Shown here: one piece after another, positions 26,836 to 33,897 of the stretch
Layout of the letters: each line of letters begins with the position of its first letter
Numbering within the stretch: position 1 is the stretch's first letter
Assembly: GCA_944358945.1 (NCBI GenBank)
Contig: CALVSH010000054.1
Span: 1-33,897 of the forward strand
Source of the DNA: an uncultured Bacilli bacterium
Lineage (GTDB): Bacteria > Bacillota_I > Bacilli_A > RF39 > UBA660
Length of the DNA: 33,897 nt
Direction of reading: 5' to 3'
Program-made: the position numbers and the translations under genes
The notes under the pieces: model-generated
The model's database searches: none
What the model was told of the DNA's origin: nothing
What the model saw: the letters and a program-made list of their open reading frames with translations, nothing else

Positions 26836-28002
26836 TTAATTTAATTTAGTTCCACAATTAGGACAGAAATTAGCACCATTAACTGCATTACCACAGTTTG
26901 GACAAAAACTTCCATTTCCAGCTTGAGCATTACTATTTCTTTGAGCTTGGTTTAACTGACTAGCAGCTTGATTTTGATATGGATCATAAGCTTGTTGTGT
27001 AGTAGCGGCAAAACCTGCTTGAGGATTCATTGCCTGATTAGCAGCTCCTCCTATGACACCACCTGATGCCATATTCATCATACCAACACCTAAGAAACCA
27101 TTCATTGCGCCAGCTTCATTATTAGCAGCATCTTGAACCGCATTAGCATAAGCACCAGCAAGAGTACCCTGTTGCATAAATTGGTTAGATGATAATTCAT
27201 AATTATCAATCTTCTTATTAGATTCATCATCTAAAGTAACACTTTCTACAACAAAACCTACCAAACTTAATCCACGATTACGAATTGGTTGATCAAATAC
27301 CTTTTCATCCATAACCATTTTTATTTCATCAGTTCTACTAGGTAATTCCAACACTGGAACTTTATGTTCAATAGTTCCAAGTTCATTTAAGACATTTTGG
27401 AAAGCCCCAATAACTTCTGAACGCATTTGTTCACAAATTTCGTCTTTTGAATACTCCTCAGCTGTACCAGCAACACGTGACATAAACAAAGCAGGATCAG
27501 CAACTTTAAAAGTATATTTACCAAAACACTTTACTTCTACACGCAAAGGACTCATAGTACCAGTCATTTGATTTGGAATTGGATGAGACCAATCTTGGAA
27601 TGGAATTGGTGCTGGAGTTCCAAACTTATTATCCATTATTTCCTTAGCATTAATATAAAATACTGCCTGTTCTTTAAATGTTCCACCATTATAAGTAAAT
27701 CTTGTCCACATTTCTTTAAAGACATCACCAAATTGTCCTGCAAAAAATGATGGAGATGTTGACTGATCAAAAGTATAAATACCTTCTTCTGCAGTTGCAT
27801 CTAAAATTTGACCATTTTGAAAAATTACTGCGATTTGTCCAGGAGAAACCTGAATAGCACTATCCTTAGAAATAATACCATTAGGAGTAGATACTCTCTT
27901 CATCAAAATATCTTGTCCTAAATCATCACAACGAATATACTCTTTCCATTGATCGTGTAATGTACTTCCTATCGCAGCGGTTGCTGCTTTAATTAAACCC
28001 AT
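26836..28002 (-). CDS. SPFH/Band-7 protein with C-terminal zinc ribbon (YdjI-like)
   Basis: A 388-aa protein. Residues about 15-275 form an SPFH/Band-7 domain of the YdjI/'virion core protein' type (DLGQDILMKRVSTPNGIISKDSAIQV near the start, GKYTFKVADPALFMSRVAGTAEEYS, RGLSLVGFVVESVTLDDESNKKI). Then comes an Ala/Gly/Gln/Asn-rich low-complexity stretch (about 285-360) and a C-terminal zinc ribbon with two CPNCG motifs. SPFH proteins form ring-like membrane scaffolds; B. subtilis YdjI is recruited to membranes under envelope stress, known with its neighbours. Here the neighbours are a TPM protein (22 bases upstream) and zinc-ribbon proteins, so it is the last gene of that operon. Confidence 0.88.
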   Translation of the reverse strand: MGLIKAATAAIGSTLHDQWKEYIRCDDLGQDILMKRVSTPNGIISKDSAIQVSPGQIAVIFQNGQILDATAEEGIYTFDQSTSPSFFAGQFGDVFKEMWTRFTYNGGTFKEQAVFYINAKEIMDNKFGTPAPIPFQDWSHPIPNQMTGTMSPLRVEVKCFGKYTFKVADPALFMSRVAGTAEEYSKDEICEQMRSEVIGAFQNVLNELGTIEHKVPVLELPSRTDEIKMVMDEKVFDQPIRNRGLSLVGFVVESVTLDDESNKKIDNYELSSNQFMQQGTLAGAYANAVQDAANNEAGAMNGFLGVGMMNMASGGVIGGAANQAMNPQAGFAATTQQAYDPYQNQAASQLNQAQRNSNAQAGNGSFCPNCGNAVNGANFCPNCGTKLN

Positions 28003-28024: not shown

Positions 28025-28939
28025 TTAGAAATGGTGTCCACCACCACCATGGCTTCGACCACTACTTCCCGAATGACTAGAACCTCCACCACTACTACTA
28101 GAATGAGAAATTGGAGTAGAAGTAGTATGACTAGAAGTAAGTACATCTCTAACTACCTTAATGTTAATAGATCCTTTTTCTAAGTATTCTCTAGATGTAG
28201 TAGCAACTTTTACCATTTTATTTTTACTAATTAAAATTCCCATTACAATAATAGTAATAACACTAGGTACACCTAAGACAATTAACCAAGGGAATTTTCT
28301 ATAAATTTCTCCATCAGCACTAATTGCATACTTACTATCTATATTACTAGGCAATCCCATTGTATCATAGTTTTCAATAATTGTCATAAATTTTGTAATT
28401 CCTTCAAAATACTTGTCACTTCCAAACTCTGTATAAATAGCATCTAAAATCTTATCAATTCGAATATCATTATACATATCCATCGCTTTACCTGTAGTAC
28501 TTATATAGATTTCTCTATTTTTCATATCTACCAAAAACAACAATCCACTATGATCATCACCTAATCCAAAACTATTATAATCATAAAAATCATCTGCATA
28601 AACTTGACTACAATCTTCATAAGAACAAATCTTATCATAATCACTAACAGTCACAATCGCTAAATCTAAATTACTCTTCTCAATAAATTGAATAACTTCA
28701 TCATAAAGAATAACTTCTTCTTGCGAAGTAAGTAAACTAGCAAAATCATATATTTTTTCTTCTGCATTCACAGCTGGTGTAGATAATACACTACTCATAT
28801 TAGAAGAATCAACAACAATATCATTAGGTACCAACCAATTTTCATAAGTTCTGACATAAGTATTGGTACTAGCATCTACCTTAATATATGGCAAAAACAA
28901 AACAAGAATAAGAAGGAAAATCTTAAAACACTTTTTCAT
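28025..28939 (-). CDS. TPM-domain membrane protein
   Basis: A 304-aa protein. It has a signal peptide (KKCFKIFLLILVLFLPYI, likely cut after VDA), an outer TPM domain (about 60-200; IYDFASLLTSQEEVILYDEVIQFIE, GDDHSGLLFLVDMKNREIYISTTG), a membrane segment at about 215-240, and a Ser/Gly/His-rich tail ending GGGGHHF, typical for YgcG-type TPM proteins. TPM proteins are tied to membrane and metal-stress systems (comparative genomics); no activity is settled for this group. I choose the ATG at 28939: AGGAGG is upstream, the stop of the previous gene overlaps it as ATGA, and the reading from 29005 would add a non-signal stretch. Confidence 0.88.
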   Translation of the reverse strand: MKKCFKIFLLILVLFLPYIKVDASTNTYVRTYENWLVPNDIVVDSSNMSSVLSTPAVNAEEKIYDFASLLTSQEEVILYDEVIQFIEKSNLDLAIVTVSDYDKICSYEDCSQVYADDFYDYNSFGLGDDHSGLLFLVDMKNREIYISTTGKAMDMYNDIRIDKILDAIYTEFGSDKYFEGITKFMTIIENYDTMGLPSNIDSKYAISADGEIYRKFPWLIVLGVPSVITIIVMGILISKNKMVKVATTSREYLEKGSINIKVVRDVLTSSHTTSTPISHSSSSGGGSSHSGSSGRSHGGGGHHF

Positions 28940-29991
28940 ATAATTCCTCCTAAATATAGACCTATACAAATAATAAGACATACTAGAAAAATACCAAGAG
29001 ACCATAAAACAACCTCTTTAACTCCTAATGGCAAATCTCCAATAATCTTACCTGTCTGACCATTCATCGCAAAAGTATACATCTTATCACGATATTTAAT
29101 ATTCACCATAAATACAGGCAATAAAATATAATTAGACTTAACATTATTTAAATTAAGTTCATTTTTAACAGCACTCTTCTGCTGATGTCTAACTCTCTCT
29201 TTAAATAATGAAACCGTAGTATTTAAGGTTCTATTTTTTGCTCTTTCAATTGCTTTTTCTTCTAAAACATCATATTTTTCTGATAAAAACCCTGATAAAT
29301 ATGCATGATTATATTCCGTTAAACCCTTATAATCAAAAGGTTCCAAAGAGTCCATCAAATCATCAGGAAACCGTGAAGAGCCATCTGCCAATACTTTATC
29401 AAAATTCATACTACCTTCACAAACTACATCATAAGTATCTGTCTTGGTATAGCTTTGATAATAATCACTCCACGTATGTATATCAACACACTTAAAATGA
29501 ACAGTCCCATCAACATCAAAATCATATGCCCAGAAAGGAATATAAACTCCAGTAATCTTATCAATATTCTTTCGACTCTTAAAAGTTCTAGGTACTAATG
29601 GTTTATGTTTTACAAGATCTAAAAAAGCACTAGTAGCATCTTCCTTAACTTTCTGAAAAGGAATAATAAAATCAGGTACTCTACTATTTTGAATTCTCTC
29701 TTTTAAAATTGCCGTATTTCCACAATAAACACAGAATGTAGCTGTCGTATTAGGATCGGCAAGTATTTCAGCTCCACAACTATTACAACGATATAAATCA
29801 CAAGATTCGACTTTTACTTCTTTTTTATTTTCATTTTTTTGATTTACTTCTTCACTACTAGCATTTTTATACTTTTGTAACTCCTCTAAAGTAAACTCAC
29901 TACCACAATATTCACAAACCCATTTTTGCTTCTTAGGAGAAAACTTCAAAACCGCTCCACAACTAGGACATTTATGATCAAGAGCCTCCAT
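28936..29991 (-). CDS. Membrane protein with two zinc ribbons
   Basis: A 351-aa protein. Two zinc ribbons lie at the N-terminus (CPSCGAVLKFSPKKQKWVCEYC, about 8-32, and CNSCG---CVYCG, about 70-92). A long central domain (VPDFIIPFQKVKEDATSAFLDLVKHKP, GVYIPFWAYDFDVDGTVHFKC) precedes a C-terminal membrane helix (about 328-350, VVLWSLGIFLVCLIICIGLYLG). Similar TFIIB-type zinc-ribbon proteins occur next to TPM and SPFH genes in other Firmicutes, without a settled function. I use the ATG at 29991 with GAGGTGAT upstream, rather than the TTG before it. It is the first gene of the TPM-SPFH operon, with a promoter at 30017-30025. Confidence 0.8.
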   Translation of the reverse strand: MEALDHKCPSCGAVLKFSPKKQKWVCEYCGSEFTLEELQKYKNASSEEVNQKNENKKEVKVESCDLYRCNSCGAEILADPNTTATFCVYCGNTAILKERIQNSRVPDFIIPFQKVKEDATSAFLDLVKHKPLVPRTFKSRKNIDKITGVYIPFWAYDFDVDGTVHFKCVDIHTWSDYYQSYTKTDTYDVVCEGSMNFDKVLADGSSRFPDDLMDSLEPFDYKGLTEYNHAYLSGFLSEKYDVLEEKAIERAKNRTLNTTVSLFKERVRHQQKSAVKNELNLNNVKSNYILLPVFMVNIKYRDKMYTFAMNGQTGKIIGDLPLGVKEVVLWSLGIFLVCLIICIGLYLGGII

Positions 29992-30016
29992 CAAATCACC
30001 TCATTACTCTATCCTA

Positions 30017-30025: not shown

Positions 30026-30082
30026 TATCAAAAGATTTTTTAGAAGAAAAATAAAAGTTTTCTTTTGAACGACTTAATAAAT

Positions 30083-30114
30083 AAAAAAAGATATATGACT
30101 CATATCACATATCT
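30083..30114 (-). terminator. Intrinsic terminator of the 48-aa gene
   Basis: Minus strand AGATATGTGA, loop TATGAG, TCATATATCT with one G-U pair, then T residues. The TGA stop of the 48-aa gene (30105-30107) lies inside the stem, which supports that gene being real. Confidence 0.8.
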
Positions 30115-30251
30115 TCCTTTAATTTGTCCATAGTAGACTCTTTATTAACAACTTCTACAAGTAATTTACCTTCCTTAGAATTGCTATCAATATGAATATT
30201 CTTCATAGCAGATTCCCTCTCTACTACTTCACATCTTTTTTCATCTTCCAT
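30105..30251 (-). CDS. Small 48-aa protein, paralogue of the one at 31969
   Basis: A short acidic/basic mixed protein beginning MEDEKRCEVVERESA, with a core MKNIHIDSNSKE and LLVEVVNKES. The core matches the 53-aa protein at 31969-32130 at 19 of 24 positions, and the replaced residues are mostly conservative. GGTG lies six bases before the ATG, and a terminator is built onto its stop codon. These three facts support a real gene. No membrane segment. It lies between the 294-aa zinc-ribbon gene and the zinc-ribbon/TPM/SPFH operon. Function unknown. Confidence 0.75.
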   Translation of the reverse strand: MEDEKRCEVVERESAMKNIHIDSNSKEGKLLVEVVNKESTMDKLKEDM

Positions 30252-30296
30252 TATTATCACCAATATTAATATATCCATACAACAAAAGAAATATAC

Positions 30297-30323
30297 AAAA
30301 AAAAGAAGAAAAACTCTTCTTCT
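30297..30323 (-). terminator. Intrinsic terminator of the 294-aa gene
   Basis: Minus strand AGAAGAA, loop GAGTTT, TTCTTCT, then a long T run. The stop codon (30322-30324) is partly in the stem. Confidence 0.75.
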
Positions 30324-31206
30324 ACTTATCTATGATATTTTTTATAATTCCAATAGGACTAGATCCTCTAGCAACTCTAAACATCTTATTAATAATATCA
30401 TCTTTAGACTCGCGAATAGCTTTCTCAACTTCACGAACATCCTGATACTTCTTAATCACATTCGTATTAGCTCTAGAATTAGAATCATAATAACGAATTG
30501 TCATATCTCGATATATAAATCTATCTTCAGGAACTTTAATAATTTCATATCCTAAAGTATTGATAAAATAAGCCTTCAATAACTTATTAATCTTCTTATA
30601 ATTTCTCTTCAAAGCTTTAGATATTTCTGGTTTAAATTTATAAGAAGTAATCTCCTCAACCATTTCATCAATATCATAACAAACTTTTAAATCATCGTTC
30701 ATCTTCTTTTGTTCTTTTTCTAATTTTTCAATTTGTTTTATCTCATCTTTTAATTTCTTCTTATACTTAGCTTTTTCATCAATAGATTTCAAACGATCAA
30801 AAGTATCCAAAATAAGTTTAACATCAGACCAAAATTGCATATTTAAATCGCAATCAGTCTCAAAGTCATCCTCATCATATAACTCACCAAAATAACCAAG
30901 ATAAGATTTTATTCTTAAAATAAATGCTTCAATATTAAAAGGATCTAACTCAATAATAGTATCAATAACACCATTAGCATTCTGATATTCTTTTAACTTC
31001 AAATAATTTTTAGCATCCTTTAATCTATCATCATTATCTTTAATACCTGATACTTTAACTTTACCACTTAATTCTAATTTATATTTCGCAACTGCATCTT
31101 CAATAATAATATCACTATTACAATATTTACATGTCGTTACTTCTTCGTTTCTATCTACCTCTAAATTTGCCCCACAGTTAGGACACTTTGCTGCTGTTAA
31201 CTTCAT
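30322..31206 (-). CDS. Zinc-ribbon protein with TPR-like helices
   Basis: A 294-aa protein. A zinc ribbon at about 7-33 (CPNCGANLEVDRNEEVTTC, then KYC) leads to a TPR-like helical pair (LKDAKNYLKLKEYQNANGVIDTIIELDPFNIEAFILRIKSYLG, about 62-105), then a long Lys/Glu coiled coil (about 135-180), and a C-terminal domain I do not recognise. There is no membrane segment, so it is cytoplasmic or bound to partners. It lies 16 bases after the 224-aa membrane protein, so the two form an operon. The zinc ribbon is like that of the 351-aa protein and the SPFH protein nearby. Function unknown. Confidence 0.75.
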   Translation of the reverse strand: MKLTAAKCPNCGANLEVDRNEEVTTCKYCNSDIIIEDAVAKYKLELSGKVKVSGIKDNDDRLKDAKNYLKLKEYQNANGVIDTIIELDPFNIEAFILRIKSYLGYFGELYDEDDFETDCDLNMQFWSDVKLILDTFDRLKSIDEKAKYKKKLKDEIKQIEKLEKEQKKMNDDLKVCYDIDEMVEEITSYKFKPEISKALKRNYKKINKLLKAYFINTLGYEIIKVPEDRFIYRDMTIRYYDSNSRANTNVIKKYQDVREVEKAIRESKDDIINKMFRVARGSSPIGIIKNIIDK

Positions 31207-31222
31207 CTTCTACCACTTTCCA

Positions 31223-31897
31223 TTAAAGAACGATTTCGTCCCATTTAGATTTTTTCTTATTCCATACATATCTAACTTTTAAATGAGATTCCATATCTTC
31301 AACAATCTCTTTCGCAATATCAAAAGCTCTTCTAGCTCTAAAGAATCTAAATAAAGATCTTAAGAATAAGATAGGTGTAACAACAATACCTAATGCTAAT
31401 CCGATAATTCCCATAATACAACCAACATTACCAGTATTTTGTTCTACCTTTACTTGTCCAAACATATCAGTTCTTGCCGTATAAGAAACATTACCAGTCT
31501 TTACATTATAATCATCAACTTCACTACCCCAGGTAAAGAACTTCCAAAATGATGCTGCTCCTACTAAAATATATCCTAACCAAGAATCATCAGGATTTAT
31601 CACAATAATAAGTAAACCTAAAACATATAATACACCAAGAATTAACATAGATTTTATATGAGAATTTCTTTCGTCTCTAGAAACATCATAAACCAAGGTC
31701 ATTCTAGCTAACAAACCTTTAATAGACCATTGATTTTCATTCATTGCATCAACATCATCTAAATAATTACTAATATCACGATTCTCATTAATTTTCTCTC
31801 TAGTTTCTCTTTCCCATTCTTTTAAAGATTTTTTAGACTGCTTCTCTTTTTTCTCTTTCTTTTCCTCTACTACTTCAGTTTTCTCTTCTTTTTCCAT
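31223..31897 (-). CDS. Multi-pass membrane protein with charged N-terminus (224 aa)
   Basis: The first 60 residues are very rich in Lys and Glu and should be a cytoplasmic coiled coil. Three membrane segments follow (about 83-101, 104-120, and 155-177), with an Arg/Phe-rich stretch after the last one (RSLFRFFRARRAF) and a soluble C-terminal tail. I do not recognise the family. GGAGAG precedes the ATG. It is the first gene of a two-gene unit with the 294-aa zinc-ribbon protein, under a good promoter at 31933-31961. Confidence 0.75.
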   Translation of the reverse strand: MEKEEKTEVVEEKKEKKEKQSKKSLKEWERETREKINENRDISNYLDDVDAMNENQWSIKGLLARMTLVYDVSRDERNSHIKSMLILGVLYVLGLLIIVINPDDSWLGYILVGAASFWKFFTWGSEVDDYNVKTGNVSYTARTDMFGQVKVEQNTGNVGCIMGIIGLALGIVVTPILFLRSLFRFFRARRAFDIAKEIVEDMESHLKVRYVWNKKKSKWDEIVL

Positions 31898-31932
31898 AAT
31901 AAAACACTCTCCTTCTTTAACCTCTCGATTTA

Positions 31933-31961
31933 ATTATATATAGAAAAGAATAGAAAAGCAA
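31933..31961 (-). promoter_or_regulatory. Sigma-A promoter of the 224-aa/294-aa unit
   Basis: Minus strand TTGCTT (31956-31961), 17 bases, TATAAT (31933-31938). The leader to the ATG at 31897 is about 30 bases. Confidence 0.7.
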
Positions 31962-31968
31962 GAATTAT

Positions 31969-32130
31969 TTACGAATCATTAAACTGTTCAAAGCTACTTT
32001 CTTTATCCACAACTTCAACTAATATTTTTTTCTCCTTAGAATTACAATCAATATAAATATTTTTCATCATAATATTTTCATCTTCATAACTTTTTTCTTC
32101 TTCTTCCATATTTTTCTCCATTATTAACAT
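31969..32130 (-). CDS. Small 53-aa protein, paralogue of the one at 30105
   Basis: It begins MLIMEKNMEEEEKSYEDE and has the core MKNIYIDCNSKE and ILVEVVDKES, matching the 48-aa protein at 30105-30251 at 19 of 24 core positions. I choose the ATG at 32130, which has AAAGAG eight bases upstream; the inner ATGs at 32121 and 32109 lack a good site. It starts 12 bases after the PHP gene stop, so it is co-transcribed with that gene. No membrane segment and no recognised family. The two copies sit on either side of the 224-aa/294-aa unit, which suggests a local duplication within the module. Confidence 0.7.
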   Translation of the reverse strand: MLIMEKNMEEEEKSYEDENIMMKNIYIDCNSKEKKILVEVVDKESSFEQFNDS

Positions 32131-32142
32131 ATTAAATTCTCT

Positions 32143-32871
32143 TTATTTTAATGACAAAAACTTTCTCTTCACAAATACACCTTGATTAAAATCATACTTA
32201 CTAGACACCTCATCAATAGCATCATATATTTCATACAATCGATGAGCATCACTACCATAAGTTACCATATTACCACCTAAACTACGATATAACTCCAACT
32301 TCTCATCACTCGGAAAAGAATCAAGACCAGATCTTCTAACCGCAGAAGTATTAATCTCTAATGCTATATTTTTACGAATCATCTCTTTAAAAATAACACC
32401 AATCATATCATTAGGTAACAAGCTATCATCAACTCTTCTACGTAAATAATCAAGATGACCTACCGCATCAATATCACAATTAATAACCATTCCTAAAATT
32501 CTTTGATAATAAAGTAATATCTCTCGTTTAGAATTATCATCAGGTAAGATATGATTACTACCAATAATATAATCCAAATCCAACATCTTAAGTACACGCA
32601 TCTGTTCAGAATAATTTTCCGGATTAGACACCTCTACTCCTTTAAGCAAAGTAATATTAGGATACAACTCCTGTAACCGTTCTACTTCCCTCTTATATAA
32701 ATCATAACGATTTAAAAACTGATTCATATTAATCTGTCCAAACTCTAAATGCTCCGTAAATGCCATATACTCTAATCCTAAATCCATTCCCCTTTCTACC
32801 ATATCCTCTAACTTCATCTGCCCATCATAAGAATAAATAGAATGCATATGTGTATCTGCCTTATAACTCAT
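32143..32871 (-). CDS. PHP-domain hydrolase, histidinol-phosphatase (HisK/HisJ) family
   Basis: A 242-aa PHP enzyme. Metal-ligand motifs are in place: ADTHMHSIYSYDG at the start (His7, His9), FTEHLEF, IIGSNHILP, DAVGHLDYLRR, LEINTSAVRR and YGSDAHRL. It is of the HisJ/HisK type, which removes phosphate from histidinol phosphate, but many such proteins outside his operons have other phosphoester substrates. No other his gene is present, so I leave the substrate open. AGGAGGG precedes the ATG. It is divergent from lysR, and an LTTR box lies about 65 bases upstream of its likely transcription start. Confidence 0.88.
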   Translation of the reverse strand: MSYKADTHMHSIYSYDGQMKLEDMVERGMDLGLEYMAFTEHLEFGQINMNQFLNRYDLYKREVERLQELYPNITLLKGVEVSNPENYSEQMRVLKMLDLDYIIGSNHILPDDNSKREILLYYQRILGMVINCDIDAVGHLDYLRRRVDDSLLPNDMIGVIFKEMIRKNIALEINTSAVRRSGLDSFPSDEKLELYRSLGGNMVTYGSDAHRLYEIYDAIDEVSSKYDFNQGVFVKRKFLSLK

Positions 32872-32965: not shown

Positions 32966-32981
32966 ATAACTGGTGATAATA

Positions 32982-33863
32982 ATGATTCAAAATATAAACT
33001 TAAACATCCTAAAATATTTCTACGAAGTAGCTCAGATAAAAAACATAACACAAGCCAGTAAAAAACTAAATATTTCACAACCTGCTCTAACAAAAGCTAT
33101 CAAGGAACTAGAAACCGAACTAAATACCACACTTCTAATTCGCAATAATAAAGGAATAACACTAACAAAAGAAGGTAAAATTCTATATGAATACTCAAAA
33201 ACTATGTTTCAAAAACTACAAACCACGATAAAAACAATAAACAATCCAAAAGAACAAAAACAACATCTATATATTGGAACTACAACTACCAACTTCCTAG
33301 AACCAATTCTCCCAGTTCTAAACGAAATAAGAAAAAAACATCCCAATATTCAAATTCATATGTTCCTAGAAGAAATAGAAGTACTAGAAAACTACCAAGG
33401 ACTTGGCAAAATGGACATCGTAATTAAAAATGACTACGAAACAATGCACAACCTAGAAAAAATAAAAACCTTCTCCATCCAAGACCACTTCATCGCCTCA
33501 TCCAAACACTATAAACACCTAGAAAATAAAATTCTAACAATCGAAGAAGTCTTATCATACCCTCTAGTACTACTGACAAACATCACTCATGGTAGAAGAA
33601 ACTTTGATAACTATTTAGACTCAATCGGACTAAAAATAAAACCAAGTTATGAATTCAATAGTTATAGTCTATGTAAAGAATTAATAAAAAACGGTTATGG
33701 AATAGGTATTGGAAATCCTATTCATTATAAAGGAAAAAGTTTTATTATCTTAAAAACAAACTTCCATCTACCAGAAAGATTCTTTGATATCTGTAAAATT
33801 AAAAATTCAGATAATGAAATATTAGATGACTTTACACAATTAATAAAAAACTACCTAAACTAA
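32982..33863 (+). CDS. LysR-family transcriptional regulator
   Basis: A 293-aa regulator. The N-terminal winged helix-turn-helix is typical (LKYFYEVAQIKNITQASKKL, ISQPALTKAIKELE, LIRNNKGITLTKEGKILYEYSK, about 5-65). A substrate-binding domain follows (about 90-290; LYIGTTTTNFLEPILP, GKMDIVIKN, GYGIGIGNP). The effector is unknown. I start it at the ATG at 32982, six bases after GGTG, rather than the GTG at 32973, which is part of that site. It is divergent from the PHP gene, and the dyad between them is the likely operator, so it probably controls itself and the PHP gene. It is one of two plus-strand genes and ends in a strong terminator. Confidence 0.93.
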   Translation: MIQNINLNILKYFYEVAQIKNITQASKKLNISQPALTKAIKELETELNTTLLIRNNKGITLTKEGKILYEYSKTMFQKLQTTIKTINNPKEQKQHLYIGTTTTNFLEPILPVLNEIRKKHPNIQIHMFLEEIEVLENYQGLGKMDIVIKNDYETMHNLEKIKTFSIQDHFIASSKHYKHLENKILTIEEVLSYPLVLLTNITHGRRNFDNYLDSIGLKIKPSYEFNSYSLCKELIKNGYGIGIGNPIHYKGKSFIILKTNFHLPERFFDICKIKNSDNEILDDFTQLIKNYLN

Positions 33864-33897
33864 AAGAATTAGAAATCAACCTTCTAATTCTTTTATT
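33862..33897 (+). terminator. Intrinsic terminator of lysR
   Basis: A perfect 13-bp stem (33862-33874 with 33882-33894) with a 7-base loop and a T-rich end at the window edge. The TAA stop of lysR (33861-33863) overlaps the stem. Confidence 0.85.

Follow-up and report, generated by a model that had tools for sequence, protein, structure and literature searches.

The window, the whole stretch of 33,897 nucleotides analysed here, carries two small paralogous genes, A and B, in the neighbourhood of genes for SPFH, TPM-domain, membrane and zinc-ribbon proteins (Table 1). As the original prediction had stated, the cores of A (MKNIHIDSNSKEGKLLVEVVNKES) and B (MKNIYIDCNSKEKKILVEVVDKES) are identical at exactly 19 of 24 residues, and a search of the same genome with A recovered B at E = 6.6e-8 and no third copy. 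The ATG start codon of A is preceded by a conserved GGTGAT ribosome site, and for B, which has two candidate starts, the internal ATG at 32109 (46 aa) is preferred over that at 32130 (53 aa) because it agrees with the family length of 45-49 aa and is preceded by a GGAGA site. Ribosome sites had been predicted for both frames, and both look real, which supports the earlier view that they are genes overlooked by length cut-offs.

Table 1 Features of the locus, with the basis on which each was assigned.
Feature	Position	Strand	Basis
Family-wide gene A (small protein, 48 aa)	30105..30251	-	Open frame with a conserved ribosome site; dN/dS 0.14; family members in eight genera
Gene B, 46-aa paralogue (53 aa from upstream ATG at 32130)	31969..32109	-	19/24 core identity
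Upstream region of A: promoter-like element (GTATATT, ATATATTA) followed by the ribosome site (GGTGAT)	30255..30300	-	Genus-wide alignment, spacing 17-18; enrichment
Intrinsic terminator overlapping the stop codon of A	30077..30120	-	-17.9 kcal/mol, z -5.6
224-aa membrane protein, inserted cassette	31223..31897	-	No Pfam family; one other genus genome, G154
294-aa zinc-ribbon protein, inserted cassette	30322..31206	-	Weak zinc-ribbon matches; pairs with 224-aa gene in G154 too
PHP-domain phosphatase (HisJ family), first in probable PHP-B-224-294 operon	32143..32871	-	PF02811, TIGR01856; 33 nt before B
LysR-type regulator, in insertion between serS and PHP	32973..33863	+	PF00126, PF03466; contig join to serS
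Membrane protein with double zinc ribbon, encoded downstream of A	28936..29994	-	Syntenic and co-occurring with A
TPM-domain protein	28025..28939	-	PF04536, E 7.4e-21; syntenic
SPFH (Band 7) protein, zinc ribbon at C-terminus	26836..28002	-	PF13421, E 9.4e-22; syntenic

Judged by its substitution pattern and distribution, A is a genuine, lineage-restricted gene under purifying selection. Copies occur in 14 of the 16 genus genomes, including all five of high quality, with a mean dN/dS of about 0.14 across these 14 copies and 649, 295 and 1555 substitutions at codon positions 1, 2 and 3, respectively. Codon position is thus respected, and conserved copies in relatives, the other check proposed at the outset, extend beyond the genus, since a profile search gave clear matches in additional genera within the GTDB family, bringing the total to eight (g1, g56, g68, g69, g95, g132, g133 and g141). 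Matches to the improved profile split cleanly into those with E <= 1e-13 and those with E >= 5e-4, with a gap between, and the weak matches (E > 5e-4), which lay mostly inside long unrelated frames, were ignored; the copy in G522 was counted despite its weak score (E 0.027) because it lies directly behind serS and has a similar upstream element. Among 84,980 species genomes scanned, 24 loci were recovered, all from metagenome-assembled genomes, with titles that are mostly Bacilli, Bacillales or Tenericutes and include one Candidatus Faecimonas gallistercoris; Faecimonas has been placed in the order RF39 (PMC8035907).

Conservation within the family is strongest along N-I-x-x-D-x-N-S-K-E-G-K-x-L-V-E-V-V. 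An AlphaFold2 model of A (pLDDT 82, pTM 0.43) comprises a helix (residues 3-14), two strands (17-24 and 29-36) and a second helix (40-46), that is, a predicted helix-hairpin-helix fold. The copy in G193 (L184:5989-6090) is shortened to 34 aa, lacking most of the N-terminal helix but retaining the hairpin core. Foldseek returned nothing for the model at E <= 0.001, and the best VIA-align match (Z 2.7; 46 residues, 11% identity, rmsd 4.6) was to 3zqm, the oligomerisation core of an SPP1-like phage small terminase, a weak alignment for which we claim no homology. At the sequence level, neither A nor B matched Pfam above the cut-off, searches of Pfam, NCBIfam and PHROGs gave chance-level matches only, and the PDB yielded a single match at E 0.32. 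An origin of A as a phage or mobile gene was rejected, as no relatives were found in an IMG/VR scan or by tblastn against INPHARED. With A, a large set of uncultured gut bacteria in which spore formation is inferred from genes alone gains a well-supported family of small proteins that Pfam, NCBIfam and PHROGs lack.

The gene order around A was compared across the 24 loci outside the window, 23 of which have an A-type gene; the exception, G154, was included for its 224/294 cassette. In nearly all loci where the contig is long enough, the order is DUF5684, dipeptidase (not in all), serS, up to three further genes and A, followed by an optional membrane protein, the double zinc-ribbon, TPM and SPFH genes, an ankyrin gene, miaB and a ylbF-like gene. 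The last 127 bases of the window (33771-33897) overlap exactly with the end of contig C3, which belongs to the same genome and bears serS. A join between the two contigs is very probable, and the order here would therefore be serS, LysR, PHP, B, 224, 294, A, zinc-ribbon, TPM and SPFH. By comparison with the other loci, the cassette between serS and A is a lineage-specific insertion. The 224/294 pair is present in 2 of the 16 genus genomes, this one and G154, at different chromosomal places, and in G154 it adjoins a polynucleotide phosphorylase-like gene and has no small gene beside it. An initial contig scan with the 294-aa protein gave no match. In the genus and profile searches B was seen only in this genome, and it is a lineage-specific local duplicate of A. 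The original prediction of A and B as a conserved pair flanking the membrane/zinc-ribbon unit was rejected, given that the unit is an insertion, B is confined to this genome and the pair in G154 lacks a small gene. The 224-aa membrane and 294-aa zinc-ribbon genes themselves form a candidate mobile pair.

The two paralogues also appear to differ in their transcription. B is separated by 33 nt from the PHP gene upstream and by 71 nt from the 224-aa gene downstream, and RNA folding detected no terminator at B; because of these short spacings and the lack of a terminator, it is probably co-transcribed with both neighbours and appears to belong to a PHP-B-224-294 operon. A follows the 294-aa gene, at whose end there is a hairpin and a T-run. 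Because a promoter-like element and a terminator belong to A itself, we propose that it is transcribed as a unit by itself, apart from the membrane genes. None of 200 shuffles folded as well as the terminator of A, so the terminator that had been noted on its stop codon is present, but it is not special: of 21 terminator-bearing copies of A, 18 have a terminator that begins within the final codons, and 99 of 143 intrinsic terminators of other genes at these loci (L073-L096) likewise begin at or before the stop codon. An unusual terminator or attenuator at A was rejected on this comparison. It also weighs against A being a leader peptide whose translation to the stop would melt the terminator and let transcription continue into the membrane genes; the overlap in the copies of A is what such a peptide would predict, but selection is strongest on the core of A rather than its end, and the genes downstream vary between loci, which makes this mechanism very improbable. 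Intrinsic terminators that begin inside the coding end are a general habit of this lineage.

In 12 loci, the region preceding A contains GTATA(TT) and YATAYTA at a spacing of 17 or 18 nt, located 43-47 nt ahead of the start codon. GTATATT is absent from two genus copies (L168, L169) and from four copies of other genera, and in several other genera only a YATA..TA-like element is retained. Using sigma consensus sequences from Bacillus subtilis and loci that come from related genomes and are not independent, we found the strict sigma-G consensus (GHATR-N16-18-CATNHTA) before 7 of 25 small genes versus 2 of 283 other genes of the same loci, and a sigma-E-like pattern at 9/25 versus 5/283, whereas the sigma-A pattern occurred at 1/25 and 23/283. 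A looser motif gave 13/25 versus 2/283, although it was read off the same data and is descriptive only. On these counts, the element of A looks like a sporulation-sigma promoter of the sigma-G type, and sigma-E also fits some copies. For roughly half of the copies in the genus, GTATATT falls within the 3' arm of the hairpin that terminates serS, and this terminator, rather than promoter function, may conserve part of the motif; GTATATT and its spacing are kept where the hairpin is absent or negligible (e.g. WIN_A, L161, L167 and L174). The SASP gene of the same genus has a similar layout, GTATT-N17-CAACCTA. Near the locus, spoVS has a sigma-E-like promoter in several copies (TCATATT, about 13 nt, CATATATT; loci examined upstream were L073, L074, L076, L077, L082, L084, L089 and L094).

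Small sporulation proteins of B. subtilis such as Fin, CsfB, CsgA and the SASPs are under sigma-G or sigma-E control, and A is like them in size, in having its own transcription unit and in promoter layout. However, no sequence relation to any of them was found, and CsfB has a zinc-binding cysteine set that A lacks. The possibility that A is itself a SASP (PF00269) was rejected, as it has no Pfam match above the cut-off and the SASP of the genus is a separate gene. Genes for SpoIVA and SASP are present in all 16 genus genomes and spoIVB in 325 of 386 family genomes, and RF39 has been predicted to include sporulating species (PMC10868615). Because spoIVB is near-universal, its co-occurrence with A is uninformative and the presence of sporulation genes provides weak support; moreover, most relatives with sporulation genes lack A, which is thus not generally needed for sporulation. 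One SpoIVB sequence (L058) contains HIDTNSKTKNILFEVTDKEL (E 1.7e-4 in one genome), as would be expected if A were a free-standing imitation of the SpoIVB hairpin that precedes the active-site serine and inhibited this sporulation protease. This is scarcely credible, and a hairpin relationship with SpoIVB (PF05580) was rejected, since the profile scored 14.3 against about 30 SpoIVB sequences while shuffled controls reached 19.0.

The TPM/SPFH/zinc-ribbon cluster adjoins A and partially co-occurs with it, but shares no domain with it. A zinc-ribbon orthologue (>200 bits) was found in 16 of 20 genomes with A versus 10 of 60 without (Fisher p = 5e-7; p = 0.0013 when collapsed to genera), where the p values are guides only, as the 80 genomes were hand-chosen and are related. 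Within g56, g69 and g133 the two genes are both there or both missing, and a single deletion of adjacent genes may account for the co-occurrence; in G479 both persist, with A beside serS and the zinc-ribbon gene on a different contig. Exceptions to the association are G147, which has A without the zinc-ribbon gene, and the ten genomes with the reverse. No paper on the TPM/SPFH/zinc-ribbon/LemA combination came up in a literature search.

The original prediction took the small proteins to be partners or regulators of this system. Synteny in most loci and the co-occurrence agree with that part of the claim, as does the position of B in an operon with another membrane/zinc-ribbon pair, but a dedicated role of A (and B) in ordinary growth, without a tie to sporulation, is somewhat unlikely in our view: by sequence A is transcriptionally separate from the system, its promoter-like element looks sporulation-type rather than vegetative, the association has the exceptions given above, and the 224/294 pair of G154 lacks B. 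We consider a spore-stage role for A, as read from its upstream element, at least as likely as a dedicated partnership with the membrane system. A lineage-specific protein with an unrelated housekeeping or stress task, whose neighbourhood reflects inherited gene order only, would fit the serS-to-miaB region being kept as a block and A remaining beside serS in G479. We regard this as decidedly unlikely, given that A and the zinc-ribbon gene are concordant in three genera and that the gene behind serS is mostly different in genomes without A. When the region behind serS was surveyed for small ORFs in 28 genomes from other genera, with the downstream side unreadable in four loci, the only two short candidates (L197, L211) lacked the core motif.

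Based on these comparisons, we tentatively favour, at slightly less than an even chance, A being an adaptor or inhibitor made during sporulation, with the SPFH/TPM/zinc-ribbon system as its likeliest target and B as a duplicate under new control. A would be a soluble protein of 45-49 aa with a charged N-terminal helix, a beta-hairpin (NIxIDxNSKEGKxLVEVV) and a short C-terminal helix, with a transcript of its own that starts at a sigma promoter of sporulation type (sigma-G-like, possibly sigma-E) and runs up to the terminator at its stop codon. It could be produced in the developing spore or the mother cell, might assemble through the hairpin, and may act on another protein, most likely within the neighbouring membrane system. 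The control of B would have been altered when it landed in an operon that also contains genes for PHP, membrane and zinc-ribbon proteins. The fuller version, in which a lineage-specific spore-stage A controls the SPFH/TPM/zinc-ribbon platform in RF39-type gut bacteria and B was re-wired with a second membrane/zinc-ribbon pair, is improbable as a whole. If the promoter reading is true, A marks a lineage-specific spore-stage function and offers a handle on the role of the poorly understood TPM/SPFH membrane cluster.

A occupies a single fixed locus next to serS in lineages that are scattered, a pattern consistent with vertical inheritance accompanied by losses. Explaining its carriers on the serS tree needs six changes, which together with the single locus suggests that A was present early and lost repeatedly rather than transferred. 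Two family genomes contain tandem serS-like genes (L093, G523:C69; and G027:C40:6072-8557).
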